Positions 16,518 to 33,500 of a DNA stretch of 41,371 nucleotides are shown here, piece after piece. The notes under the pieces are model-generated. The model saw nothing but the letters and a program-made list of their open reading frames with translations. It had not been told where the DNA came from and ran no database searches. Each line of letters begins with the position of its first letter. Position 1 is the first letter of the stretch. The position numbers and the translations under genes were made by a program. The stretch is from Candidatus Cloacimonadota bacterium (GTDB lineage Bacteria > Cloacimonadota > Cloacimonadia > Cloacimonadales > TCS61): positions 1 through 41,371 of the forward strand of contig JAGYMQ010000002.1 of assembly GCA_018400535.1 (NCBI GenBank), given 5' to 3'.

Positions 16518-18554
16518 TTATTTCAACATTATCATCTTTTTCGTATTGAAAATTTCGTTGTCGATCTTCAGCATCGAAAAATAGATCCCGCTACTCAGAC
16601 TTTCACCGTTATTACTATTTCCATCCCAAACGATAGAATAAAAACCTGCAGTTTTTTTGCCGTTGAACAGAGTTTTCACGAGTTGTCCTTTCACATTGAA
16701 AACCTGTAACGTGATATCTGCATCTTTTTGTAGAGAAAATTTGATCTGCGTTGTTGGATTAAAAGGATTGGGATAAATTCCGATCAAACCATTTTTTTCT
16801 GCTTTCAAAAATTCTTCAGTTTCAGTGCCAATTACTGATAACAAAACAGGAACGAGTGTTTCTTCCCGATCGTCAGAAATGATGATATCACATTCATAAT
16901 CGCCTGCAATAATTGCATTTGTGTCAAAAGTTAACTGGATGAGAAGCGAATCTCCGCCAGCAATTTCGCCTGAAAAGAGATCAAGTTCCAGCCAATTCAC
17001 AGGTTCGCTCAATTCCAGATCGAAAGTCAGTGTTGTTTCACCAATATTTTTCATTTGCAATTCTTCAGTGAGAGTCTCATCAACGCTCATTTCCAATTCA
17101 AAAAAGGCAGGATCGAGAACAAGTTCAGCGGGAGTGGGTCCGGTTATCACTGTAAATTGATGAGGATCGGCAGCGCCAATGAATGGATGGAAAACATTTT
17201 TTCCGGATTCATCTGCAGCATGGATAAAATAGCTCACTTCTGTTCCGATCGGTTGAGCTGGAATGATCCCGGAATAAGTGTCATTGCCGTTATCAGTCAT
17301 TTGAACAGCGATGAAATTTCCATCATCGATTTGATAAATGACTTGTAGTGAATCCATGATAAGAGCTTCGTCGCTGAAAGGAATGATTTTTGCCATGATC
17401 TCAAATTCCGTGCGATATTCCTGATTGCCCCAAAGCGGTTGATGCTCGACGTAAAGCATATTTCGATCAGCAACTCCGCGGGTTCGACAATGCAAAGCAT
17501 CCGTATTCAACCAGCCGGTAGAATATATTCCAAAGATCTCATAGCCAGGCATCGCTTGCTCGTAGGTTTGCAATGCTTCATCATCCCATTGACTGCCCGT
17601 TTGTGGAACAAAAACTTTGTTATTGACGATCAGAGAATTTGTGTAGGGAGTGGCAGGATTTCCACCTGGTGTGTAAACGCGATAGACTTGATAATTATTG
17701 CCCCAAGCAGAAGTTTGAGCGACGAAATAATCGGCGACAGCTTCAAAATCTTCATAACGATAATCGGTTTCGGGAACTTCTCCGATCAATACTTTGTCCA
17801 CATCAAGGAATTTTCCCCAGCAATCGATGTGTTTTATATAATCATCGAGCGGATCGAGAGTTACATGATATTCCTGAATTCCCAGAAAATCCAGAACTAA
17901 TTGCTCGATTTGTGCAGGAGTGAGACTTGGATTTTCATCATAAACGAGATCGGTCGATGCTCCGACATAATTTCCATCACACATATAATTTCCACCTGTA
18001 TGTTCGATGTCCATTCCATAAAGATCAATTCCCAGATAATTTGCTACTTCGATCGGTATTTCATCATCAAAGGGACGCGGACGATTATAGGGAAAATCAA
18101 CGATCGCGATCTGGTCATCTTCGGCAATGAACCAGGGACCGAAATCTCTTACCCAATAAGAATTTGTACTGGCATTGATGAATTCACAGTTTGCCAGATT
18201 GACGCCATTATTCTGATAATTATTTTCACATTGACTCTGTTGATAACTGGCAACGATAGTATAAACTTTTGTATCTTCAGAAATTTCGGCGATCAAATTG
18301 TAGGGAACACCGAGAGGATAAACCACTAGAACGCCTTCCATTTGTTCAAATTCGGAAGTTTGCCGCACATCGCCAGTTGGTGGATCGGTTGGTGTGAAAT
18401 CTCGTTCATAATCAAAATTGAGGAAAAATTCTTCCAGACTGAGGAAATGACTGGAAAGGGGATTCTCTTGAATTTCCTGCGGTATCACTTTTTGATCTTC
18501 GGTAAAAGCACAAACGCTTGCGAACAATAATAGAAAAATTAACAATTTTTTCAT
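16518..18554 (-). CDS. Secreted peptidylarginine deiminase-like protein with C-terminal sorting domain
   Basis: This 678-residue exported enzyme has a signal peptide (1-17), a catalytic guanidine-deiminase domain (about 60-375), an Ig-like domain (about 380-460), a second beta domain (480-590) and a C-terminal sorting domain starting IYPNPFNPTTQIKFSL. The catalytic domain resembles Porphyromonas PPAD and agmatine deiminases: WVRDFGPW (D137), GGNYMCDG, HIDCWGKFL (H242, D244), TNSLIV and DALHCRTRG (C356). These match the PPAD Asp/His/Asp/Cys set. NRPRP (R158, R160) lies where PPAD has two arginines that read a C-terminal arginine substrate. Expected reaction: arginine to citrulline plus ammonia, outside the cell. 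Agmatine-type activity is the alternative. Confidence 0.86.
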   Translation of the reverse strand: MKKLLIFLLLFASVCAFTEDQKVIPQEIQENPLSSHFLSLEEFFLNFDYERDFTPTDPPTGDVRQTSEFEQMEGVLVVYPLGVPYNLIAEISEDTKVYTIVASYQQSQCENNYQNNGVNLANCEFINASTNSYWVRDFGPWFIAEDDQIAIVDFPYNRPRPFDDEIPIEVANYLGIDLYGMDIEHTGGNYMCDGNYVGASTDLVYDENPSLTPAQIEQLVLDFLGIQEYHVTLDPLDDYIKHIDCWGKFLDVDKVLIGEVPETDYRYEDFEAVADYFVAQTSAWGNNYQVYRVYTPGGNPATPYTNSLIVNNKVFVPQTGSQWDDEALQTYEQAMPGYEIFGIYSTGWLNTDALHCRTRGVADRNMLYVEHQPLWGNQEYRTEFEIMAKIIPFSDEALIMDSLQVIYQIDDGNFIAVQMTDNGNDTYSGIIPAQPIGTEVSYFIHAADESGKNVFHPFIGAADPHQFTVITGPTPAELVLDPAFFELEMSVDETLTEELQMKNIGETTLTFDLELSEPVNWLELDLFSGEIAGGDSLLIQLTFDTNAIIAGDYECDIIISDDREETLVPVLLSVIGTETEEFLKAEKNGLIGIYPNPFNPTTQIKFSLQKDADITLQVFNVKGQLVKTLFNGKKTAGFYSIVWDGNSNNGESLSSGIYFSMLKIDNEIFNTKKMIMLK

Positions 18555-20728: not shown

Positions 20729-21577
20729 TCATCCTACAAAATTAAGACTCAAGAATTTTGTGATCAGATTTAGACAAACTTGAAAACGATATTCTTTTTC
20801 GGAGCGTAGATCGGAAATTGGTGTGATCTCTTTTTTTAAAATTTCAGAAATGTCATATTCGAGAAGCGTATCCAGATCTTTTCCGATCAAAAAATTCTCC
20901 AATTGAAAGAGACGTCGCGGATATTCATTCAAACTTCCCACAGCAATTTTTATCTTGGTGATCTGCCCGTGATCAATCCTTTTCAAGCCAGCTACTGAAA
21001 CTTTTGCAATGGTCAGTGTTTTGCGTGATCCAACTTTCTTATAAAAAGTTTGATAGCCTTTCGCTGCATTTTGTTTGATCCAAATACCTTTGATCAATTC
21101 GTTTTCTTTCAAGGCAAATTTTTTGTATCCCAGATAGAAATCCTGGAAGGGTATTCGGCGTGAGTCATTTTGTGAAATAAGTTCTAATTCGGCTTCCAGA
21201 ACAAGAAGAGGTGGAGAAACATCATTTGTGGGTGAACCATTTGCAATATTACCACCGAGAGTTGACATTGTCGTGAGTAGGGGAGAAGCAAAATTTTTGA
21301 GTGAATGAATTAAAAATGGGAGATGTTTTTTGATAATATTCGAATTTAGTAATTCACGATAAGTGGTGAGAGCACCGATAAATATTTCATTTTCATCCTG
21401 TCGTATCCCGTTCAATTCTGGTAAATGATTGATGTAAATGATTGTTCCTTCAGGGATCAAACCATTTTTAATCTGCACATTGATGTCCGTTCCACCAGCA
21501 AGAAAATATTTTTTTCCGGAAATTTCTGGTAAGGAAGAAAAAAGTTCGGTCAAATTATTTGGTTTCAAAAATTTCAT
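20729..21577 (-). CDS. Xanthine dehydrogenase-type FAD-binding subunit
   Basis: This 282-residue protein is the medium (FAD) subunit of a three-subunit molybdenum hydroxylase (XdhB/YgfM/CoxM family). It carries the two FAD loops AGGTDINVQIKNG (near residue 27) and TLGGNIANGSPTNDVSPPL (near residue 108), and a CO-dehydrogenase flavoprotein C-terminal domain. It passes electrons from the iron-sulfur subunit to the acceptor. I start it at ATG 21577 because AGAGGTG, which overlaps the stop of the upstream iron-sulfur gene, is properly spaced; an ATG six codons upstream has no such site. It is the last gene of the purine-catabolism-like cluster. Confidence 0.92.
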   Translation of the reverse strand: MKFLKPNNLTELFSSLPEISGKKYFLAGGTDINVQIKNGLIPEGTIIYINHLPELNGIRQDENEIFIGALTTYRELLNSNIIKKHLPFLIHSLKNFASPLLTTMSTLGGNIANGSPTNDVSPPLLVLEAELELISQNDSRRIPFQDFYLGYKKFALKENELIKGIWIKQNAAKGYQTFYKKVGSRKTLTIAKVSVAGLKRIDHGQITKIKIAVGSLNEYPRRLFQLENFLIGKDLDTLLEYDISEILKKEITPISDLRSEKEYRFQVCLNLITKFLSLNFVG

Positions 21578-21579
21578 GA

Positions 21580-22047
21580 TCACCTCTTTTGCCATCTTTC
21601 ACAGGCAAGATATAAGGAGCGGAATATCTTTTGGTAACCTGTGCAACGGCAGATATTTCCAGCAAGCGCATGTTTAATCTTATCCAGATTTGGTTCACCG
21701 TCATACATCAAATAATGATAGGATGATACCATGAATCCAGGAAAACAAAAACCGCATTGCACAGCGTTTGTTTCATCAAAACAGTCGATCAAGAGTTTTC
21801 CAGCTTTTGTTTGTGCGATTCCTTCGACGGTGAGGATTTCTCTGTTTTCTGCGTGAATTGCATTCAAAATACAGCTGGTGACTGGATTTCCATCCAAAAG
21901 TATTGTGCAAGAGCCGCATTCACCTTCACCGCAGGATTCTTTTGCTCCTGTCAAATGAAGGTCTTCCCGCAAAATGTCGAGTAAGCGTTTCATCGGATCG
22001 ACGTCAATCGTGACAGGTTTATTATTAATTTTCATATTTATTTTCAT
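21580..22047 (-). CDS. Xanthine dehydrogenase-type [2Fe-2S] subunit
   Basis: This 155-residue small subunit carries two [2Fe-2S] clusters. The plant-ferredoxin-like N-terminal cluster is bound by C39, C44, C47 (CGEGECGSC) and C59. The C-terminal helical cluster is bound by C98, C101 (QCGFC), C133 and C135 (ICRC). It relays electrons between molybdopterin and FAD subunits. GAGG is six bases before the first ATG. Its stop codon lies two bases before the FAD-subunit ATG. An 80-bp gap separates it from the large subunit gene; a TTGACA sequence overlaps the stop of that gene (22131-22126) and could be an internal promoter. Confidence 0.95.
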   Translation of the reverse strand: MKINMKINNKPVTIDVDPMKRLLDILREDLHLTGAKESCGEGECGSCTILLDGNPVTSCILNAIHAENREILTVEGIAQTKAGKLLIDCFDETNAVQCGFCFPGFMVSSYHYLMYDGEPNLDKIKHALAGNICRCTGYQKIFRSLYLACERWQKR

Positions 22048-22127
22048 TTGGTCCTCTTTTCCTGCCAGAAACTTTCACAAATTTTTTCTGACGATTATCT
22101 TAGTTTCTTGATCTAATTTCATCCGTG

Positions 22128-24275
22128 TCAATCAGTAGATTTTAGATTCTTAAAAACATTTTCAGGTGTAAGCGGATATTCATCGATGAAAATACCCGTG
22201 GCATTATGGAAAGCATTACGCACAGAAGCGGCTGGAAAATTCATGGGAATTTCTCCAAGACCTTTTGCCAGCGTTTCATCCGTGTGGATAAATTCCACGA
22301 TCATCTCAGGCAGATCGAGAGTTGTGGGCATCGCATAATCAGTAAAGCCGTGCATTCGGCCAAAACCGGGTTTATAAAAGAATTCTGTCGTGCCGTAACC
22401 CAAACCTTGCAAAATACCGCCCTCTGCTTGTCCAACTGCGATTTTTTCATTTACCACGCGTCCCACATCGAAAACGTTCCAGCTTTTGATCAATTCGATC
22501 TGATAGGTTTCTGCGTGAAAAAAGATCTCTGTGATACAAACGCCCCATGAATAATCTTTGTAAGCAATTCCCTGATAAGTTTCTTCGTCAAAAATGACCA
22601 TTGGATCTTGTTTAAAATGATTATGGATCTCTTTTGGAAATTCTGCAGGATTTTCTTTAACGTATTTTTCCAGACTGGAAAATCCGATTTCTTTTTTTAG
22701 AGCTAATGCTGTTTTTTTCAGAAGATTTCCAATGATATAAATCGTACGGGATGCAACTGTTGGTCCGCTGTCTGGCGATTTTTTCGTGTTTGGAATCTGC
22801 ACAATTGTTTTGCTGAAAGGATGACCGATCGCTTCGGCGAACATTTGTGCCAGAGTCGTATGAGCACCTTGTCCCATATCTGTATTAATAACATAAATTT
22901 TTACTGTTGCATCTTTTTCGATAACGATTTTGATCTCAGAATTCAGGATTTTTTCACCATTTCCTGTATAACCTCCACCGTGATAACCAATTGCAATACC
23001 AATACCTTTTTTGTTATCGTGCTTTTTATTCCAGAAAGCAAAATCTTTCAATTTGTCCTGATAAGATGAAATTTCCACAGCTCTTTCAAGACAGTCAAAA
23101 AGATGATCTTCTGTGATTTTTTGCGTTGTGGGAAATTCATCACCTTTACGAAGTAAATTATTTTTTCGAAATTGGTAGGGATCTTGATTCATTTTGTGGG
23201 CGATGCGGTCAATATGAGCTTCAATAGCAGAAAAAGCCTGCGGAGCTCCAAATCCTCGAAAGGCACCATTAGGCGGAGTATTGCTGTGCATAAGTCTTCC
23301 CTGCACAAAAACATCAGGAATATTATAGCCGCCATAAGAATGAAGCACACCGCGCGATAGAACGACTGGCGAAAGCGTCTGAAAAGCACCAGCATCCAAA
23401 CGATAATCGATATCCAATTTCTTGATCTCTTTCGTTTCAGGATCGGTGAATGTTTCGATCTCGATGCGGGCTGGATGACGCTTTGTCGTGATCTGAATAT
23501 CATCAGAGCGATCGAGAACAATTTTGACCGCTTTCCCCGATTTGAAGGATAGAAGAGCTGTTATTCCCGCGATCACGTTAGGAAAATCTTCTTTTCCGCC
23601 AAAAGCTCCGCCGATTCCTTCCGAAGTTTCCACGACAACTTCCTGCACAGTTTTGCCCAAGATCGTTTCGACAGCGTCCTTTACAAAATAGGGACATTGG
23701 CATGTTCCTTTGATGAACATACTTTTTGTTTCAGGATCATATTTTGCGATCATTCCTTGCGGTTCGAGATAGGCTTGTTCTTGGTGTGGTGTGTAATACA
23801 CGTGTTTTTGTCTGATCCAATCTGGAGCAATTTCACTTTCCTGATGGTGATCAATCGTCAATTCTCTACCAAAATGATTTTTTTCGTTCTCCAAACATTC
23901 TTTGATATCCGTGGTCGCCTTCAATTCATCATATTCGACTTTTATTCCTTTCACAAATTGCTGCAGGATATTTTTATCTTTATGAGCAATTCCCATGATC
24001 GGCTGTCCATAATAAGTTGCTTCATAGACTGCCAGAAAAAGCTGATCTTGTTCTGGTTCGGGAACGATATTTTTTCCCGGAATATCTTTGGCAAAAACGA
24101 TCACGAATTGAGAAAAATCAAAATTTTTTGGGAAACTGATGCTCTTTATAATAGCGTGATCTTTTTGGGAATAATAGATATAGCCATGTAGCATGTCGGG
24201 ATAGGAATAATCATCCAAAAACTGACGAGAACCGTCTAATTTTCCTATCGCATCGATCTTTCTAACTGAACTCAT
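22128..24275 (-). CDS. Xanthine dehydrogenase-type molybdopterin-binding subunit
   Basis: This 715-residue large subunit of the molybdenum hydroxylase carries the MPT-cytosine-dinucleotide/Mo site. Landmarks: GGAFGGKE (222-229), GAFRGFGAPQ (R340), DMGQGAHTT (about 467-474) and GQAEGGILQGLGY (E618). In bovine xanthine oxidase the GGKE glutamate, the FRGFG arginine and the late glutamate form the purine-binding/catalytic set. All three are kept here (E229, R340, E618), which favours a purine hydroxylase over CO dehydrogenase or aldehyde oxidase. It is shorter than E. coli XdhD and has no fused iron-sulfur domain. Its ATG overlaps the upstream threonine-synthase-like stop by four bases (ATGA), indicating translational coupling. 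Confidence 0.92.
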   Translation of the reverse strand: MSSVRKIDAIGKLDGSRQFLDDYSYPDMLHGYIYYSQKDHAIIKSISFPKNFDFSQFVIVFAKDIPGKNIVPEPEQDQLFLAVYEATYYGQPIMGIAHKDKNILQQFVKGIKVEYDELKATTDIKECLENEKNHFGRELTIDHHQESEIAPDWIRQKHVYYTPHQEQAYLEPQGMIAKYDPETKSMFIKGTCQCPYFVKDAVETILGKTVQEVVVETSEGIGGAFGGKEDFPNVIAGITALLSFKSGKAVKIVLDRSDDIQITTKRHPARIEIETFTDPETKEIKKLDIDYRLDAGAFQTLSPVVLSRGVLHSYGGYNIPDVFVQGRLMHSNTPPNGAFRGFGAPQAFSAIEAHIDRIAHKMNQDPYQFRKNNLLRKGDEFPTTQKITEDHLFDCLERAVEISSYQDKLKDFAFWNKKHDNKKGIGIAIGYHGGGYTGNGEKILNSEIKIVIEKDATVKIYVINTDMGQGAHTTLAQMFAEAIGHPFSKTIVQIPNTKKSPDSGPTVASRTIYIIGNLLKKTALALKKEIGFSSLEKYVKENPAEFPKEIHNHFKQDPMVIFDEETYQGIAYKDYSWGVCITEIFFHAETYQIELIKSWNVFDVGRVVNEKIAVGQAEGGILQGLGYGTTEFFYKPGFGRMHGFTDYAMPTTLDLPEMIVEFIHTDETLAKGLGEIPMNFPAASVRNAFHNATGIFIDEYPLTPENVFKNLKSTD

Positions 24276-25522
24276 AATTTCCTCTTTTGCAATTCAGAAA
24301 TATCGGAGATGGGAGCGGGCAAATTGCAGATTTTAGAAATGGTTTCGACGTCTTTCAAACCACTTCCCGTAAGTAAAATGACATTTCGAGATTGTGCATC
24401 AAATTTTTCATTTTTACTGAAAGCAAGTGCTCCAGCAAAGGAAGCTGCCGCAGCTGGTTCTGCAAATATTCCACTATTTTCACTCAAAATTCGGGACGCT
24501 TTTAAAATATCTTCATCAGAAACCGTAATCCATTTTCCTTGATAACTTTGCAGATATTTTTTTGTCAAACGAAAATTGCGCGGTACATCAACAGAGATCG
24601 AATCAGCGATTGTTTTGCTGGGTTGAGAAACGAATTTTTCGTCTTTCAGATTTCGGATCAGGTTATCGCTTTTTTCTGATTGGACTGCAACGATTGTGGG
24701 CATATTCTGAATGATTCCTAATTTCATAAGATCTTCAAATCCTTTGAAAACTCCAGAGATGATGCAACCATCACCAACAGGAACAAAAATGCGATCAGGA
24801 ACATTTTTTCCCAGTTGCTCAAAAATTTCCCAACTCACAGATTTTTTTCCTTCGATCGTCAGTGGATTATATGCAGTATTTCGATTATACCAACCAAATT
24901 TTCTGGAAGCGGCGATACTCATTTCAAAGGCATCATCATAGTTTCCTTGAACCGGAATTACTTGCGCTCCATACATCAGCATTTGCATCAATTTTGCTTT
25001 GGGCGCAGAAGCGGGCACGAAGATGATCGCTTTTTGACCTTGTGCTGCACATATTCCAGCTAAAGAAGAACCCGCATTTCCAGTCGATGCTGCCACGATC
25101 GTGTTCCAGCCATTTTCCTTTGCAAAAGCTGAAACGAGATTGGAAGCACGATCTTTGTAAGAAAAGGTGGGATTTTGCGAATCATCTTTGAGAAAGAATT
25201 TTCCTTTACCAAAAATGTTGTCGCTTTTATCATCTGGTATTTCGTAAAAGGGTGTGTTTCCAACTTTCAGGAAGGATAAACTGGCAGCAGAATGAATCGG
25301 TAAAATTTCCAGAAAATCTTTTTTTCGAAGCTGGGAAAACAGCGATGAAGGAAATTTCTGTTTGATTCTTTCATAATCATAGAACGTTTGTAAAACACCT
25401 TTTGGCGGGAGCTGGGATGTGTTTTCTTTTGCACAATTCGGGCAGAGATATTGCACTTCTTCTGCCCGATATTTTTTTCCACAATCTGAACACTGGAAAT
25501 AAAATTTTTCCGAACTACTCAT
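24272..25522 (-). CDS. Threonine synthase-like PLP enzyme with zinc ribbon
   Basis: This 416-residue fold-type-II PLP enzyme starts with a zinc ribbon (C11-x2-C14, C27-x2-C30). The PLP domain has NPTFSYKDRAS with Schiff-base lysine K123, the phosphate-contact loop ASTGNAGSSLAG, VPVGDGCIISGVFKG and a C-terminal LLTGSGLKD. The layout is that of threonine synthase (ThrC, no homoserine-specific insert judged). Its location between another PLP enzyme (8-bp overlap) and the xanthine dehydrogenase large subunit (4-bp overlap) argues for a catabolic role in the cluster, for example diaminopropionate or related amino-acid elimination, instead of threonine synthesis. That role is inference; housekeeping ThrC remains possible. 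Confidence 0.82.
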   Translation of the reverse strand: MSSSEKFYFQCSDCGKKYRAEEVQYLCPNCAKENTSQLPPKGVLQTFYDYERIKQKFPSSLFSQLRKKDFLEILPIHSAASLSFLKVGNTPFYEIPDDKSDNIFGKGKFFLKDDSQNPTFSYKDRASNLVSAFAKENGWNTIVAASTGNAGSSLAGICAAQGQKAIIFVPASAPKAKLMQMLMYGAQVIPVQGNYDDAFEMSIAASRKFGWYNRNTAYNPLTIEGKKSVSWEIFEQLGKNVPDRIFVPVGDGCIISGVFKGFEDLMKLGIIQNMPTIVAVQSEKSDNLIRNLKDEKFVSQPSKTIADSISVDVPRNFRLTKKYLQSYQGKWITVSDEDILKASRILSENSGIFAEPAAAASFAGALAFSKNEKFDAQSRNVILLTGSGLKDVETISKICNLPAPISDISELQKRKL

Positions 25523-26978
25523 ATTTTTTCAATAATCCTGTGCGTTCGTTAAATTCTCTGATCTTTTCATCCCATTCATTCACTTTATTGAATTGAGAAG
25601 TCCAATAATCTTCATTATACCATTGCTCATTCAGTTCTTGGATCGTTTTTCCCTGCTGTTCTATCCAGGTGAAATATTTGAGATTGTGCATCCGCTTTTT
25701 GTCATAATAGTTCATTTCCAACATATAATCCAAGCTTAATCCTCGCAAAGCTTTTTCAAAGGCGATCGCAGCATCTTTTTCTGTGAATTCACCATGCTTT
25801 TCACGCTCTTGAAGAACACGCGACTGATACATTTCCATCGAATCGGTAGCAACGGTGAAGATCACATCGTTATCTTTCATTTCATAATATTTCGCCATTT
25901 TGATCGCACCCATAATATTGGCAATTGAAGAGATTCCAAAAAGATGTAGTTGCTTGATCAGTTCAGAAGGAACATTTTTCTTTTTCAAGTAGGAATGACC
26001 GGCTTCTTCATTGAAAAGACGCATTATGTCAATATTCGGTTGGTCATCAATATCAATGACCATATCCATATTTTTGATGTTCATGATCCAGGGCACATGC
26101 TTATCGCCAATTCCTTCGATGCGATGAGCACCATAACCATTATAAAGCAAAGTTGGACATTGCAAAGCTTCACCAGCTGCAACTTTGTAAGATGGAAATT
26201 TTGTTCGTAGATAATCAGCACAACCCAGAGTTCCTGCCGAACCTTGCGTCAGAAATAATGCACTAAATTTGTCATTTTCTCGTTTTTCTTGAAGAAAGAC
26301 TTCTTCCATGGCAGGGCCGGTTACAGCATAATGCCAAACTGCATTTCCGATCTCGCTGAACTGATTTAGATTCACGATTTTGTCGCCCCGTTCTGCCATC
26401 AATTCCTTGGCTTTATCATAGATTTCTTTGACGTTACTTTCGCTGCCAGGCGTGGCGATGACTTCCGCACCAACTTTGTGCAGCCAGTCAAATCTTTCCT
26501 GACTCATTTCTTCGGGAAGCACTGCGATGGATTGACAGCCCAAAAGGTAGGAATCGTAAGCGCCGCCGCGACAATAATTTCCTGTGGAAGGCCAGAGTGC
26601 TTTTTGCGTGGTTGGATCAAATTCACCATGCACAAGTTTTTCCACCAAAGGACCAAAAGTTGCTCCCACTTTATGAGAACCTGTCGGGAAGAATTTTCCA
26701 ATTAGAATGATAATACGCGCCGGAACTCCTGTCAATTCGGAAGGAAGCTCCAGATAATTCACACCTTGAAATTTTCCACCTTTTTCCACTGGTTCGTTTT
26801 TCCAGGTCAATCGAAAGAGATTCAGTGAATTTAATTCCCACAATCCAATATTTTCTAATTCTGCTTTGATTTTCTCGGGAATAAGCTCGGGATTGCGCAT
26901 TTGTTCGTAAGTTGGAATAATGATATTCTTTTCACGACATCTTTGGATCGTGTTTTTGAGAATTTTTGCTTTATTCAT
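25515..26978 (-). CDS. Fold-type-II PLP-dependent lyase, unassigned substrate
   Basis: This 487-residue enzyme is related to the cysteine synthase/TrpB fold. The PLP lysine is K103 in FPTGSHKVGATFGP, the phosphate loop is WPSTGNYCRGGAYDSYLLG, and LTQGSAGTLGCADYL lies in the C-terminal half. It is longer than YgeX-type diaminopropionate ammonia-lyases and lacks their lysine motif as I recall it, so I do not call it YgeX. Start: ATG at 26978 has AGGAG six bases upstream; the frame stays open a further 34 codons upstream into the carbamate kinase gene but without support. It follows carbamate kinase by 19 bases and overlaps the next PLP gene by 8. A role in deaminating the purine-derived backbone is my inference. 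Confidence 0.82.
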   Translation of the reverse strand: MNKAKILKNTIQRCREKNIIIPTYEQMRNPELIPEKIKAELENIGLWELNSLNLFRLTWKNEPVEKGGKFQGVNYLELPSELTGVPARIIILIGKFFPTGSHKVGATFGPLVEKLVHGEFDPTTQKALWPSTGNYCRGGAYDSYLLGCQSIAVLPEEMSQERFDWLHKVGAEVIATPGSESNVKEIYDKAKELMAERGDKIVNLNQFSEIGNAVWHYAVTGPAMEEVFLQEKRENDKFSALFLTQGSAGTLGCADYLRTKFPSYKVAAGEALQCPTLLYNGYGAHRIEGIGDKHVPWIMNIKNMDMVIDIDDQPNIDIMRLFNEEAGHSYLKKKNVPSELIKQLHLFGISSIANIMGAIKMAKYYEMKDNDVIFTVATDSMEMYQSRVLQEREKHGEFTEKDAAIAFEKALRGLSLDYMLEMNYYDKKRMHNLKYFTWIEQQGKTIQELNEQWYNEDYWTSQFNKVNEWDEKIREFNERTGLLKKYE

Positions 26979-26997: not shown

Positions 26998-27960
26998 TTA
27001 TTTTTCGATAATCGTGCCAGCCTTACCCTCAAGAGCATCAGCAGCTTTTTGTAAGGAAGTGATGATCGCTTTTTCTCCACCAGCTTTCACGAAACGAATA
27101 GCAGCTGTAACTTTCGGTCCCATACTTCCGGCCAAAAAATGTCCTGCCGCGAGATATTCTTCTGCTTCAGCCACGCTGATCTTTTGCAAAGCTTTTTCAT
27201 CTGGTTTGCCAAAATTGATGCAGGCATTTTCCACATCAGTAAGCACCAGAAAAATATCGGCATTTACTTCTTGAGCTAATTTATTGCCAGCTTTATCTTT
27301 ATCGATTACAGCTTCCAAACCGGATAGCGAGTCATCATCTTTTTTCATCACAGGAATTCCACCGCCACCCGAAGCAATAACGATAGCACGTGCTTCGATC
27401 AAAGCTTTGATACTTTCAGCTTCAATTATAGTATAAGGTTCTGGAGATGGAACGACACGGCGCCAGAGTTTTTCACCGTTTGGTTTGACTTTTTTCACGA
27501 CGTAGTTTTTTTCTTTTTCCAATCTTTTCGCTTCTTCTTCTGTGTAAAAAGGTCCGACTGGCTTGCTGGGATCATTAAAATCGGGATCATCTTTTTTAAC
27601 CAAAACTTGTGTTATCAAAGAAGTGATGGGAATTTCTTTTCCAATTTGACGGAAATAATTTTGTAAAGTATTCTGGAACATATAGCCGATCTGACCTTGC
27701 GTCATTGCGCCAACCACATCAAGTGGTTGGGCTGGAACAAGTTCTTTTCCTTCTTCTTGTTGGATCAAAAGATTTCCGGCCTGAGGTCCGTTTCCGTGGG
27801 TTATCACCAATTTATAACCAAGGGTATTCATTTTGACCAATTGTTCGCAGGTTACTTCCACATTGCGAAATTGTTCTTCTGCGGTTCCGTTTTCATTCGA
27901 TTGTTTGATAGCATTGCCACCTAAAGCAATTACAACTAATTTTCTCTTATCTTTTGACAT
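26998..27960 (-). CDS. arcC: Carbamate kinase
   Basis: This 320-residue amino-acid-kinase-fold enzyme converts carbamoyl phosphate plus ADP to ATP, CO2 and ammonia. Signatures: VVIALGGNAI at the N-terminus, VITHGNGPQAGNLLIQQE, VVGAMTQGQIGYM, ASGGGGIPV, DKDKAGNKLA and LTDVENACINF. Length is standard. It follows the second carbamoyltransferase by 9 bases and carries AGGAGA. In the E. coli purine-related region the equivalent is yqeA. Its presence means the flanking carbamoyltransferases probably run in the phosphorolytic, ATP-yielding direction. Confidence 0.95.
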   Translation of the reverse strand: MSKDKRKLVVIALGGNAIKQSNENGTAEEQFRNVEVTCEQLVKMNTLGYKLVITHGNGPQAGNLLIQQEEGKELVPAQPLDVVGAMTQGQIGYMFQNTLQNYFRQIGKEIPITSLITQVLVKKDDPDFNDPSKPVGPFYTEEEAKRLEKEKNYVVKKVKPNGEKLWRRVVPSPEPYTIIEAESIKALIEARAIVIASGGGGIPVMKKDDDSLSGLEAVIDKDKAGNKLAQEVNADIFLVLTDVENACINFGKPDEKALQKISVAEAEEYLAAGHFLAGSMGPKVTAAIRFVKAGGEKAIITSLQKAADALEGKAGTIIEK

Positions 27961-27969
27961 TATTTTCTC

Positions 27970-29007
27970 CTAAATTTTTACTTTCAAGCCTGCCATTGTC
28001 ATAGCCATGATCGCCTTTTGCGTGTGCAGTCGATTTTCTGCTATATCAGTTATGATCGAATTCGGGCCGCTGGCAACTTCGTCTGTTACTTCTTTGCCGC
28101 GGTCAACCGGCATTGGATGAATGAAAAGCGCATTATTTGTGCGATCCATTCTTTCTTGATCGCAGATCCAATCCGTCATTTTGCGAGCCCGAGCAATTTC
28201 AGCTTCTTTTCCGATCTCATAAAAATCCGGGCCAAACCAATTGCGAGAATAGACGAATTCCACATCTTCATTATAAGCTGCATAAGGATCATTAATGATC
28301 TCAAATTTCGTGCCATTCATTTCACAATTTTTCTTTACTTTGGCGATTTCTTCTTCTGGAAGATCATATCCTTTGGGATAAGCGAGTTTAACGTTCATTC
28401 CCAGCCGTGAGGTGATCAAAAGATTCTCGTGGACAGAGCAATAGGAACGCGCTAGCGCACCGTGCGCCCAACTCATTAAAACAGTTTTTCCTTTCAGATC
28501 ACCACGATGTTCTTCCATCCCCATCACATCGGAAAGTCCCTGACAGGGATGATATTTGTCGTCTGCCATATTGATGATCGGCACATTCATCCAGCGTGCA
28601 TATTCCCGCAGAAGTGCATTTCCATCACCATAATGTTTCACAGAAGTTTCCAAAATTCTGATGCCCATTCCAGCAGCATATCGCGCCAGAACCTGTGCGG
28701 CATCTTCGATGGTTTCGCCAGCTTGCACTTCGACGCCTTGACTCGTTTTTTTCAACCGCATCGTTTTTGGTTCCAGAAATTGAGCATGTCCGCCCAATTC
28801 GGTTGCAGCTGCCTCGAATGAGATGCGGGTGCGCAAAGATGGATTAAAGAAGAACATCAAGAAAGTTTTATCTTTGAGTAGCTGATTGAATTTTTTATCG
28901 AATCGATCTTTTTTCATTTCTTTTGCCAGTTTCAAGATCGCTTTGATCTCATCAACAGATAGTTCTTGCGTCGTGAGAACATCTTTTCCTTTTATATCGA
29001 CTAACAT
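27970..29007 (-). CDS. Carbamoyltransferase 2, YgeW/knotted-like paralogue
   Basis: This 345-residue member of the aspartate/ornithine carbamoyltransferase family has carbamoyl-phosphate motif SLRTR (57-61), HPCQ (153-156) and HPMPVDRGKEV (from 297). In the amino-acid-binding half it reads MSWAHGALARSYCSVHENL, aligned with the MTWAYSP-type proline-rich segment of YgeW and the N-acyl-ornithine carbamoyltransferases, but altered. ATG at 29007 is preceded by AGGAGG; the frame is open upstream but unsupported. It is a tandem paralogue of the gene just upstream, 58 bases away. The substrate is likely a ureido compound but is not established. Confidence 0.86.
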   Translation of the reverse strand: MLVDIKGKDVLTTQELSVDEIKAILKLAKEMKKDRFDKKFNQLLKDKTFLMFFFNPSLRTRISFEAAATELGGHAQFLEPKTMRLKKTSQGVEVQAGETIEDAAQVLARYAAGMGIRILETSVKHYGDGNALLREYARWMNVPIINMADDKYHPCQGLSDVMGMEEHRGDLKGKTVLMSWAHGALARSYCSVHENLLITSRLGMNVKLAYPKGYDLPEEEIAKVKKNCEMNGTKFEIINDPYAAYNEDVEFVYSRNWFGPDFYEIGKEAEIARARKMTDWICDQERMDRTNNALFIHPMPVDRGKEVTDEVASGPNSIITDIAENRLHTQKAIMAMTMAGLKVKI

Positions 29008-29065
29008 ATTTCCTCCTGAATTTTTGTTAAAATGAAAAGGGTGATTCTTTACCCATTTCCATAAA

Positions 29066-30142
29066 TTATAATCTTCCACCCATAAGTAGCGTCATAACGG
29101 CTTTCTGAGCATGAAGTCTATTTTCTGCTTCATCAAAGACAACGCTTTGCGGTCCATCAATAACTGCATCGGTTACTTCCATATCTCTATCTGCTGGAAG
29201 ACAGTGCATATAAATTCCATTTTTGTCGATAAGTTTCATTTTTTCTTCATCGCAGATCCAATGTTTATTTTTTTCAAAAAGTGCTTTCATTCCATCCAGA
29301 TCTTCTTCTTTGATCTTCTTGCCGTTTTCATCTATCTGAGCGAAATAATCCATTGCACCCCATGATTTTGGATAAACAACATGTGCGCCTTCAAAAGCTG
29401 CTTCCATATCATCAGTTTCTTCGAAAGTGCTGCCATTCTGGTCGGCATAAGCCTTACACTGTTTTGTTACTTTTGGATCAAGTTCAAATCCTTTGGGACG
29501 AGCCAGCACGACGTCCATTCCTAATAAAGAAGGTGCTAAAGCCAGACTTTGTGGAACTGCAAAGGGTTTCGCTGTCGAGCCGGAATATGCCCAGCTGATC
29601 ACGAATTTTTTCTTCTGGAAATTACCAAATTTTTCCTTGATCGTCAGCATATCTGCAAGCGCTTGACAGGGATGATAAATATCATCTTCCATATTGATGA
29701 TGGGAATATCCGCCCAATGAGCAAATTCTTTGAGCGTTTCGTGAGCAAATCCATAGATCCACTGTGAAGGTTTACCATACATTCTGATCGCGATAGCATC
29801 TCCTGTGCGGCTTAATACACGCGCCACATCAGAAATTCTTTCTGTTTTGTAGGGAATCTCAAAACCTTTCCGAGCTGGAGTGTAGGTCTTTCCTGGCTCC
29901 AGATCAACGTGATAACCACCCAATTGTTGTATCCCAGCAGCGAAAGTGCTTCTCGTGCGCAGAGAACTGTTAAAGAACATTGTATAAAGTGTTTTTCCCT
30001 TCAATATCTGGGAAGTATCTTCGTTCATTGCATAACGCATCTTCAAATCTTCTGCCAGTTTAAGCAGACTTTCCCATTCTTCTTTTGTCCAATCGATTTC
30101 AGGACTGAGCCAATCTCTTCCAAAAAAATTGTTACTTCTCAT
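29066..30142 (-). CDS. Carbamoyltransferase 1, YgeW-like (knotted type)
   Basis: This 358-residue carbamoyltransferase has motif SLRTR (60-64), HPCQ (157-160) and HCLPADRDMEV (from 313). Its segment ISWAYSGSTAKPFAVPQSL (182-200) closely resembles the YgeW segment with MTWAYSP and KPLSVPQ, and PKGFELDP matches the following strand. YgeW is a trefoil-knotted carbamoyltransferase encoded in the E. coli and clostridial purine/uric-acid clusters, where it is proposed to act on ureido intermediates. It lies between ygfK (with a 262-bp gap containing a small ORF) and a paralogue 58 bases downstream. Ribosome-binding site AAGGAG. Confidence 0.9.
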   Translation of the reverse strand: MRSNNFFGRDWLSPEIDWTKEEWESLLKLAEDLKMRYAMNEDTSQILKGKTLYTMFFNSSLRTRSTFAAGIQQLGGYHVDLEPGKTYTPARKGFEIPYKTERISDVARVLSRTGDAIAIRMYGKPSQWIYGFAHETLKEFAHWADIPIINMEDDIYHPCQALADMLTIKEKFGNFQKKKFVISWAYSGSTAKPFAVPQSLALAPSLLGMDVVLARPKGFELDPKVTKQCKAYADQNGSTFEETDDMEAAFEGAHVVYPKSWGAMDYFAQIDENGKKIKEEDLDGMKALFEKNKHWICDEEKMKLIDKNGIYMHCLPADRDMEVTDAVIDGPQSVVFDEAENRLHAQKAVMTLLMGGRL

Positions 30143-30404: not shown

Positions 30405-33400
30405 TCAGGATGTAACATATAGATATTCATATCTTTCGCTGACAGTTCTGATCAACTGGACAATGGCGGGAAAATCTCTGTTCTCAAAAGATTTGTCTGC
30501 TTGCCAATTTTGATCAAAAATGATATCTTTCATTTCATTATCGATCTTAAGGCGAAACTGTTTTAACTTCAAATCAATTGCAAAAAATCCATCATTATCG
30601 CTTTCCTGCATTTCTTCAGCTGACCAGAAAAGCGTGAATTTGTCTTTATAAGGTGTTCCATCATAGGGACAGAAAGTTTCGCAATTGCCACATTCGTTAC
30701 AGAGTCCATCAATATGCAGTATCTGATTTTGGTTTTGAAATCCAGGAATGTTTATCTCTACATTTGCTCGATTGGGACAAACTTCCACGCATTTATTACA
30801 GATAAAATTACATTCCAGACATCGCGCTGATTCCCGCTGAATATCTTTTTCCGTTTTTAATTTTTGCGCTGCCTCGTTGATCACAGCTTTTTTCTGGATC
30901 ACATCTTGTTGACGTTTATTCACGTCGAAAAGAAAATTATCAGCTTTTTCCAGGTCAAATTTCTGTCCTTCCTTTTGGGAAATTCCTGCTGCCACTTTCT
31001 GTGCATCAGCGATCGCTTCCACGACAGTGGCAGGTCCGCGCAACGCATCTCCAGAGATGAAAACATTATTTACGCTGGTTTCATTAAATTCATTCACGAT
31101 GATCTTATTCTGCGCATCAATCTCGATTTCGTTTTTATGCAACAGCTGATAATCTACCTGTTCGCCGATCGCCGTGATCAATGAATCAATTTTCATTTCC
31201 AGAAATTCATTTTGGATTGGAAGTGGACGTCTTCTTCCGCTTTCATCGGCTTTTCCCAGTTTCATTTTTTGGCATTTCAAAATATTGTTCTGGAAAGAAA
31301 CAGGATTGAGCAATTCCAAAAATTCAATTCCATCTTGCAAAGCATTTTCCAATTCTTCTCGATCGGCTGGCATTTCATTTATTGTGCGTCGATATAGAAT
31401 ATATACTTTTTTGACACCTTTTGTGCGGATCGCAGCGCGTGCACCATCCATTGCAGAATTTCCGCCACCAACGACTGCGACGGTCTTTCCCAGATCAATT
31501 TTTCTCTTTTCGATTTTCCACTTTTCCAAAAAATGTATTGCATCAAAAATATTAGAATTGTCGGTTTGAATTTCCAGAACCCGCGATTTTACTGCACCAA
31601 TCGCCAGATTGATGTATTGGAAACCGGCATTACGCAATTTCTTGAGATCGAGTTTTTCTTTCCAGCTAAGCTGAAATTTCACACCCATTTTTTTGATCAA
31701 AGTCAGATCATTATCAATTGCTTCTTGCGGAATGCGAAAATCGGGAATAACGTGCGAGACTGTCCCAGATAGTTCTTTTCTGCGTTCAAAAACGGTTACA
31801 TCAAAGCCATTTTTTGCCAGAAAATAGGCAGAGCTCAAGCCAGCGGGACCACCACCAATAATTGCAATTTTGGTGTTTTTTTCTGGAGGAGATTTCAATT
31901 TTTCAATAAAATAAGAAAATCCCTTTTGCGCAGCGATCAATTTCAGATCGCGGATCAAGACAGGCTCTTCATAATCATTGCGCACGCATTTCAGCATACA
32001 TTTGTGATCGCAGATATAGCCCGTGATATGCGGTAAAGGATTTTTTGCTATAATAAGTTCAAAAGCTTCTTGATAGCGTTTCTCGGCGATCAGACGAAGA
32101 TATTCCGGCACATCCTGACCAATTGGGCAAGCTTCTTTGCAAGGTGCCACAAAACAATCAAAACGAGGTAAATTTTTCTTAATTTTCATTGAAGCATCAG
32201 ATTTTGTTGCTTTCCAATATTTTGGATCAGAAGAAATATTTTTCGCTAATCTATCCAATTTTTCCTGATCAATTTTGTCTGGAAAAGAATCTGTAAAATT
32301 TTCTTCTAATAATTCTGCGATCTGTTTCAAACGAGAATATCCACCAGGTTTCAGCAATTCTGTTGCCATCGTGATCGGACGAATACCGCATTCCAGAATG
32401 TCTTTGATATTACGCAAATTCGCACCACCCGAAAAGGATATTGCCAGATTACCATCAAACTCCGCTGATAATTTTCGCACCAGATTGATCGTGAGCGGGA
32501 AAAGTGCTCGCCCACTCATATACATCTCATCTGTCGGCAAAATGCCCTGATCGTTTACAACAGCAAGAGTATTGGAAAGCTTGACGCCAAAATCCAAATT
32601 TTCTTTCTCTGCTAATTTTCGTAAAATCTTCAGCATTTGCACAGCATCAGGATATTGCATATCCTCTGTAAATGACTCTTCTTTCAAAGTTATCTGGGAA
32701 AACCCTAGTTTTTCGAAAGTGTTTTTTACAAAATCATAACCTAATAAAGTTGGATTCATCTTCAAGAAAGTGTGCAATTTTTTTTCTGTGAGCAAATATT
32801 TGCAGATGTTTTGCTGCTCTTCGGGTGGACAGCCATGCATTGTGGAAAGAGTGATCGAATTGGATATCTTAGGTGAGATCATCTCCACAAAATCAGGATT
32901 GCTTATGTCAGGAATTTCTTTAGCAACGATCATTTCTTTCAATTCACTTTTACATTTAAGGAAAAAAGGATTTTGAGAAGCATCTTTCAAATTTTCGATA
33001 AAATCATCGACCTTTTTATCTTTGATGCCCTCGAGATCATACCCGACGCTCATATTGAAAACAAAATTACGTTCTCCATTCTTTGATAGATCGAGCATTT
33101 GATCCAAAATATGAAGCAAAAACCAGGCTTTGACGTATTCTGCAAATGCTTGTTCGACGGTCAATTCAGTGCTCCATTCTGTATTATATCCCTCATCATG
33201 GGCATCTATGCAGGGTTTATCGATATCAAGTTTGTCGAGAATTTGCACCGTTTTCAGCTCAAAAAAGCGCGCTCCAGTCAAATAAGCAGCAACGATGTTT
33301 TCTGCTTGTTGCGTGTGTGGCCCAGCTGCCGGTCCGAGAGCAGTTTCACATTTTTCTCCAAAAATTTGGAAAGAAGAATCTTTTCTTTTATGGAAAATTT

Positions 33401-33500
33401 TTTCTTGCGGAATACCAAAGATCATTCCCGTTCTCTCATATTCTTTGATGATCCAATTCAATAATTTTTTTAAACCCACTGGTTTCATTATATCACTCAT
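30405..33500 (-). CDS. ygfK: YgfK-type iron-sulfur flavoprotein (purine/uric-acid cluster reductase)
   Basis: This 1031-residue protein matches E. coli YgfK across its length, including the start (IFGIPQEKIF), GPAAGPHTQQAENIV, ELKTVQILDKLDI, STMHGCPPEE and SGRALFPLTIN. Order: an N-terminal dihydroorotate-dehydrogenase-like barrel (about 40-400); a GltD-type cysteine region (C449-C505); FAD Rossmann motif IAIIGGGPAG (545-554); NAD(P) motif VAVVGGGNSAMDGARAA (674-690); and two C-terminal [4Fe-4S] sites (C894-C908, C934-C944). It was first annotated as a selenate reductase subunit; later work ties it to anaerobic uric-acid degradation as an electron-transferring purine-ring reductase. It heads the cluster; AGGAGA precedes the ATG. 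Confidence 0.94.
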   Translation of the reverse strand: MSDIMKPVGLKKLLNWIIKEYERTGMIFGIPQEKIFHKRKDSSFQIFGEKCETALGPAAGPHTQQAENIVAAYLTGARFFELKTVQILDKLDIDKPCIDAHDEGYNTEWSTELTVEQAFAEYVKAWFLLHILDQMLDLSKNGERNFVFNMSVGYDLEGIKDKKVDDFIENLKDASQNPFFLKCKSELKEMIVAKEIPDISNPDFVEMISPKISNSITLSTMHGCPPEEQQNICKYLLTEKKLHTFLKMNPTLLGYDFVKNTFEKLGFSQITLKEESFTEDMQYPDAVQMLKILRKLAEKENLDFGVKLSNTLAVVNDQGILPTDEMYMSGRALFPLTINLVRKLSAEFDGNLAISFSGGANLRNIKDILECGIRPITMATELLKPGGYSRLKQIAELLEENFTDSFPDKIDQEKLDRLAKNISSDPKYWKATKSDASMKIKKNLPRFDCFVAPCKEACPIGQDVPEYLRLIAEKRYQEAFELIIAKNPLPHITGYICDHKCMLKCVRNDYEEPVLIRDLKLIAAQKGFSYFIEKLKSPPEKNTKIAIIGGGPAGLSSAYFLAKNGFDVTVFERRKELSGTVSHVIPDFRIPQEAIDNDLTLIKKMGVKFQLSWKEKLDLKKLRNAGFQYINLAIGAVKSRVLEIQTDNSNIFDAIHFLEKWKIEKRKIDLGKTVAVVGGGNSAMDGARAAIRTKGVKKVYILYRRTINEMPADREELENALQDGIEFLELLNPVSFQNNILKCQKMKLGKADESGRRRPLPIQNEFLEMKIDSLITAIGEQVDYQLLHKNEIEIDAQNKIIVNEFNETSVNNVFISGDALRGPATVVEAIADAQKVAAGISQKEGQKFDLEKADNFLFDVNKRQQDVIQKKAVINEAAQKLKTEKDIQRESARCLECNFICNKCVEVCPNRANVEINIPGFQNQNQILHIDGLCNECGNCETFCPYDGTPYKDKFTLFWSAEEMQESDNDGFFAIDLKLKQFRLKIDNEMKDIIFDQNWQADKSFENRDFPAIVQLIRTVSERYEYLYVTS

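Follow-up and report, generated by a model that had tools for sequence, protein, structure and literature searches.

Two adjacent carbamoyltransferases in the place of YgeY and YgeW in an apparent variant of the anaerobic reductive uric-acid pathway

Introduction

A compact gene cluster of a Candidatus Cloacimonadota bacterium encodes two complete carbamoyltransferases side by side, among genes associated with the reductive degradation of uric acid, raising the question of what two such enzymes do there. The reductive uric-acid pathway was elucidated only in 2025. In it, uric acid is converted to yanthine by XdhD, to dihydro-yanthine by YgfK, to ureidomethyl-hydantoin by SsnA and to 2,3-diureidopropionate by HyuA (PMC12507026; PMC12990295). 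YgeW then removes one ureido group as carbamoyl phosphate, YgeY hydrolyses the other, and the 2,3-diaminopropionate so produced is converted to pyruvate by YgeX (PMC12507026; PMC12990295); the order in which the two ureido groups are removed is still open (PMC12990295). Exchanges of individual enzymes are known, with UacX or an F420 enzyme in place of YgfK and, in C. difficile, the hydrolase UacY in place of YgeW, such that the carbamoyl phosphate is given up (PMC12507026). The stretch of DNA analysed here, referred to as the window, comprises 41,371 nucleotides (assembly GCA_018400535.1, contig JAGYMQ010000002.1) of a genome of 2.6 Mb that is 96% complete.

Organization of the locus

The genes form a compact operon on the minus strand. 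YgfK (30405..33500; TIGR03315 1421 bits, cut-off 835) is followed by the two carbamoyltransferases, here termed CTA (29066..30142, 358 residues) and CTB (27970..29007), then by the carbamate kinase ArcC (26998..27960; TIGR00746 428 bits, cut-off 358) and two fold-type II PLP enzymes, the CysK-like PALP1 (25515..26978; PF00291; start assigned by its ribosome-binding site) and the ThrC-like PALP2 (24272..25522; PF00291 236 bits). An Xdh set comprising molybdopterin (22128..24275; MoCoBD_1/2), Fe-S (21580..22047; NCBIfam XdhC 155 bits) and FAD (20729..21595; NCBIfam XdhB 200 bits) subunits completes the order. The intergenic gaps are 58 bases for CTA-CTB, 9 for CTB-ArcC and 19 for ArcC-PALP1, with short overlaps or gaps downstream.

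The two carbamoyltransferase reading frames are intact and in tandem, with all of the motifs quoted in the original prediction. The start given there for CTB, a GTG at 29079, is abandoned; it has no ribosome-binding site, and the ATG at 29007 is preceded by AGGAGGAAAT, so that the latter is most likely the start, giving a predicted protein of 345 residues. In a search of the genome ArcC was the single carbamate kinase match. The transcarbamylase superfamily is represented in the genome by four proteins, i.e. CTA, CTB, a protein on contig C6 that has ornithine carbamoyltransferase motifs and is 64% identical to E. coli ArgI, and a presumed aspartate carbamoyltransferase on contig C123.

Sequence and active site features of CTA and CTB

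CTA and CTB are 38% identical to one another and both have the Pfam domains OTCace_N/OTCace (E 6e-38 to 1e-30 per domain). The transcarbamylase superfamily is marked by SxRT, HPxQ and HxLP motifs (PMC4581275), which are present in CTA (FFNSSLRTR, HPCQ and HCLP, together with WAYSGSTAKPFAVPQ) and, with leucine changed to methionine in the third motif, in CTB (FFNPSLRTR, HPCQ and HPMP, together with WAHGALARSYCSVHE); HPMP, in place of HCLP, recurs in 41/41 CTB sequences. AF2 models made from 8-row alignments are weak (pLDDT 66.5 for CTA and 59.0 for CTB), and a fold search with them retrieves the expected transcarbamylase fold. By residue tests the two proteins are neither ornithine nor acetylornithine carbamoyltransferases, and by model score and clade neither is a YgeW.

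With respect to E. coli YgeW (YTCase, PDB 3q98), CTA (32% identity) shares the SxRTR, HPxQ and HCLP motifs, a proline-rich loop at the position of the knot, a catabolic setting and five of six pocket residues, S200, K203, K270, D334 and E344 being kept as S189, K192, K259, D318 and E322, with Q160 replaced by E152; the latter aligns, in a HMMER alignment, with E144 of the X. campestris N-acetylornithine enzyme. CTB (29% identity to YgeW) keeps only D334 and E344 (as D302 and E306), the lysine being replaced by R255 and Q160 by A148, and has a Y-x-R-N-W motif in the 240s region; its pocket is distinct and is conserved across phyla. By contrast with YgeW, the N- and C-terminal extensions are missing and the 80s loop is extended. 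The knot-loop insertion is present in both proteins; the loop, which is rich in proline in the knotted enzymes known so far, has prolines in CTA and none in CTB. Neither passes the YgeW model TIGR03316 (cut-off 500 bits; CTA 167.6, CTB 98.7), on which true YgeWs of the phylum score up to 637 bits.

The best solved relative of CTA is the X. campestris N-acetylornithine carbamoyltransferase (PDB 3kzc, 40% identity), with which it has in common extended 80s and 120s loops and an equivalent of K252; the arginine cluster of that enzyme is not present. Acetylornithine carbamoyltransferases have E92, N185 and K302 as marker residues (PMC4581275), the equivalents of which are T100, K192 and E322 in CTA and G97, S188 and E306 in CTB; W77 is likewise not kept in either. 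Of the two, CTA scores just above the cut-off of NCBIfam NF003384 for acetylornithine carbamoyltransferase (296 bits, cut-off 288) and CTB below it (244). Since this model accepts CTA (29066-30142) despite the absence of the marker residues, public annotation probably misnames proteins of the CTA type, which the present analysis would correct. For CTB, the best solved relative by sequence is the P. furiosus ornithine carbamoyltransferase (1pvv, 36% identity); the carbamoyl-phosphate half is common to the ornithine enzymes (1pvv, ArgI), but the DxxxSMG motif of the latter is absent from CTB as from CTA, with R255NW and K259SW respectively in its place, and the knot-loop insertion is present.

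Phylogeny

CTA, CTB and YgeW form separate clades in the tree, with a bootstrap of 100 each (100/99 for CTA and 100/100 for CTB as paired values). CTA is sister to YgeW plus CTC, a third carbamoyltransferase type (support 96/94), and CTB lies outside the group of YgeW, CTC and CTA, near the ornithine and acetylornithine enzymes. The description of both proteins as YgeW-like holds in part for CTA, which groups with YgeW and keeps much of its pocket, and not for CTB, with the scores of both on the YgeW model speaking against it. Grouping with ornithine carbamoyltransferase, the outcome that the original prediction had named as contradicting it, was not observed for either protein, both forming clades of their own and lacking DxxxSMG. 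A recent local duplication was considered as the origin of the pair and is rejected, because the CTA and CTB clades each span several phyla. When CTA and CTB are constrained to group together, 7.4 log units are lost (AU p 0.03), and the exact relation between the two is therefore uncertain.

Genomic distribution and exchange for YgeY-YgeW

CTA was identified in 28 and CTB in 29 of 125 genomes from the phylum, the two together in 25 (Fisher p 5e-19, shared ancestry uncorrected). Chance does not account for this pairing, and the few departures from it involve incomplete genomes or the ends of contigs. Identity to the window proteins within the phylum is 84-92% for CTA and 74-90% for CTB, with one genome at 62% for both. 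Beyond the phylum, CTA, CTB and ArcC occur together in Elusimicrobia, WOR-3, Zixibacteria, Caldiserica, Eremiobacterota and one Verrucomicrobia genome, and in Neomarinimicrobiota in the order CTB-ArcC-CTA; one Muiribacteriota genome has CTA and CTB without ArcC in the stretch seen. Where a CTA locus has no CTB, the latter was located elsewhere in six such genomes (57-66% identity). A Zixibacteria locus (L179) has the order SsnA-PALP-CTA-CTB-ArcC-PALP2-Xdh, plus a purine-permease homolog.

The corresponding cluster of relatives of the window genome runs YgfK-YgeY-YgeW-(ArcC)-PALP1-PALP2-Xdh (e.g. in G083, G084 and G088), with ArcC placed after PALP1 in one YgeW-type cluster (G067) and, in a 96% complete genome of the window's own genus (G092), a second Xdh set between PALP1 and PALP2. 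In the window, CTA-CTB occupies the YgeY-YgeW position, between YgfK and the PLP/Xdh genes; the partner genes PALP1 and PALP2 are shared by the two types of cluster. ArcC is present in 39/42 CTA-CTB loci vs 2/14 YgeW loci, the YgeW genomes having mostly retained it, unlinked.

The available evidence is that, within the phylum, CTA and YgeW exclude one another. The 28 CTA genomes and 49 YgeW genomes of the phylum (of 125) have no member in common, i.e. YgeW is found in 0/28 CTA genomes vs 49/97 of the remainder (p 9e-8), in 0/18 vs 11/22 within the window's family (p 3e-4), and the exclusion is also observed in good genomes (p 2e-5), all values being uncorrected for shared ancestry. YgeY is present in 47/49 YgeW genomes. 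Family searches of the window genome gave no YgeW or YgeY above cut-off, and none of four other M20 candidates in it matched YgeY with E <= 1e-30. The association of CTA with YgeY by itself is modest (p 0.005, and p 0.36 within the window's family, shared ancestry uncorrected). Replacement of YgeY-YgeW by CTA-CTB in the window genome is well supported by comparison of gene order and gene content.

There are arrangements that do not fit a simple replacement. CTC (35-37% to YgeW) was observed adjoining YgeY (L034, L035, L036 and L048), and in all eight of the eight CTA genomes of the phylum that have YgeY, CTC is beside it. Seven genomes of two genera of the window's family (g1 and g18) have YgeY-CTC directly upstream of CTA, mostly with CTB behind, giving three carbamoyltransferases in a row (CTC-CTA-CTB); this is not explained by simple replacement, and it follows that both solutions can coexist. 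Outside the phylum, 14/34 CTA genomes have a YgeY-family match (E <= 1e-60), 11 of them over the cut-off; in three genomes that were examined (L249-L251) YgeY adjoins a true YgeW on another contig than CTA, and a YgeY-like M20 gene directly adjoins CTA-CTB in some Elusimicrobia. A strict rule that CTA-CTB excludes YgeY was considered and is rejected, as it fails with CTC and in some Elusimicrobia. A separate case is a 64% complete genome (G110; loci L110, L126 and L208) that encodes three carbamate kinases and in which CTB is found at two loci, with YgeW-YgeY on a different contig; this reflects either mixed origin or real coexistence.

Pathway context

Of the pathway genes, YgfK and an Xdh set are in the window, and candidates for the intervening steps are encoded outside its cluster. 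An SsnA homolog on contig C118, which at 355 bits falls short of the cut-off of 444, adjoins an Xdh set, and a HyuA homolog (contig C111) is 39-48% identical to HyuAs of relatives that are encoded beside SsnA; a second cluster, made up of PALP1, HyuA and SsnA, occurs in several family f13 genomes. The window genome has two different Xdh sets, one at 20729-24275 and the other next to SsnA (L085:6856-10523). YgeX was not found above cut-off in 18 genomes searched, nor in that of the window, and PALP2 scores 69.5 bits on the DpaL model (cut-off 276). PALP1 and PALP2 probably include the diaminopropionate lyase, with PALP2 a candidate to replace YgeX.

Discussion

The cluster probably represents a variant, apparently not described before, of a known pathway. 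In common with the E. coli/Clostridium reductive uric-acid pathway there are YgfK, an Xdh set, a carbamate kinase, PLP enzymes, SsnA/HyuA homologs and a ureido carbamoyltransferase; by contrast with it, YgeW and YgeY are absent, with two other carbamoyltransferases present, and two other PLP enzymes are found with no YgeX above cut-off. It is likely that the two carbamoyltransferases do the jobs of YgeW and YgeY. CTA, with its YgeW-type pocket, would take one ureido group of 2,3-diureidopropionate and transfer it to phosphate; CTB would take the remaining ureido group, yielding a second carbamoyl phosphate and replacing YgeY. ArcC would then convert both carbamoyl phosphates, producing two ATP compared with one in the published pathway, and the leftover 2,3-diaminopropionate would be converted to pyruvate by a PLP lyase (PALP2 or PALP1). 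We infer the substrates, the order and the second ATP from the place of the pair, which suggests that both urea groups are removed with twice the energy saved. That CTA acts first and CTB second is a weak guess, made because YgeW and the N-acylornithine enzymes have pockets similar to that of CTA.

The original prediction that two enzymes each remove one ureido group receives strong support from comparison, through the exclusion of YgeW by CTA and the swapping of the pair for YgeY-YgeW in collinear clusters, with the phosphorolysis itself presumed. Such phosphorolysis is disfavoured thermodynamically, and a strong pull by ArcC and the lyase is needed for two of these steps in series. Slightly less firmly, we lean towards CTB having a new specificity, for the monoureido product of CTA, such that the route is fully phosphorolytic and yields two ATP, with CTA-CTB-ArcC constituting a portable module for saving energy that several uncultured phyla possess and YgeY being unnecessary.

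Other explanations need to be weighed against this assignment of both ureido groups to the pair. It may be that CTA alone does the job of YgeW, with an unrecognised hydrolase in the role of YgeY and CTB acting on another, co-produced ureido compound. CTA has the YgeW pocket residues and the YgeW slot, the pocket of CTB differs, the genome has other M20 candidates (the four checked being without a match at E <= 1e-30) and an M20 gene adjoins the pair in some Elusimicrobia. However, CTB goes with CTA nearly everywhere, in several phyla and even when unlinked, no YgeY-profile protein is present in the window genome, and CTB and ArcC are in one operon; this explanation is considered unlikely. The formation of one mixed trimer by CTA and CTB, with active sites at their interfaces and either a single specificity or both ureido groups handled in one complex, has a lower probability still. 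The transcarbamylase catalytic unit is a trimer in which residues of the adjacent subunit help to bind substrate (PMC4581275), and the genes are closely coupled and tend to be present or absent together, but the carbamoyl-phosphate motifs are complete in both proteins, each of which has a conserved pocket of its own, ArcC lies between the genes in Neomarinimicrobiota, and the genes are unlinked in several genomes.

There is very little room for the cluster degrading another diureido compound in the same way. Allantoate, for example, likewise bears two ureido groups, cyclic amidohydrolases are hard to separate by sequence and a HyuA homolog (at L148) also matches allantoinase models; yet YgfK, the PLP enzymes and genes of the SsnA type fit the route through diureidopropionate, and there is collinearity with the YgeW-YgeY clusters. 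A role of the pair in arginine or N-acylornithine biosynthesis, misread as catabolic, is the least probable, the score of CTA on the acetylornithine carbamoyltransferase model being countered by the differences at E92, N185, K302 and W77 in both proteins, by neighbours that include ArcC, YgfK and Xdh with no arginine genes nearby, and by the separate protein with ornithine carbamoyltransferase motifs on contig C6.

If the two-enzyme route is correct, the variant is similar to that with UacY in C. difficile in that the ureido-removing enzyme is exchanged, but here a carbamoyl phosphate would be gained rather than lost, doubling the ATP from ureido groups. Two dedicated enzymes would also allow the two ureido-removal steps to be separated, and the range of the pathway would extend to anaerobes, uncultured and mostly environmental, of several phyla. 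The CTA-CTB exchange was not found in the literature searched, although absence there is not proof, and the enzyme specificity is probably new.

Relatives of CTA also occur in other settings. In Pandoraea and Burkholderia, proteins 46-52% identical to CTA are encoded next to PLP enzymes, with a matching locus in Kitasatospora (L184-L203). One of the Pandoraea loci (L190) also encodes an AurF-like N-oxygenase and a PurA-like enzyme and looks like a biosynthetic cluster, possibly based on diaminopropionate. Elsewhere in the window, a long protein is encoded at 16518-18554 that, judged by eye, is deiminase-like in its N-terminal part and resembles secretion-sorting tails in its C-terminal domain.
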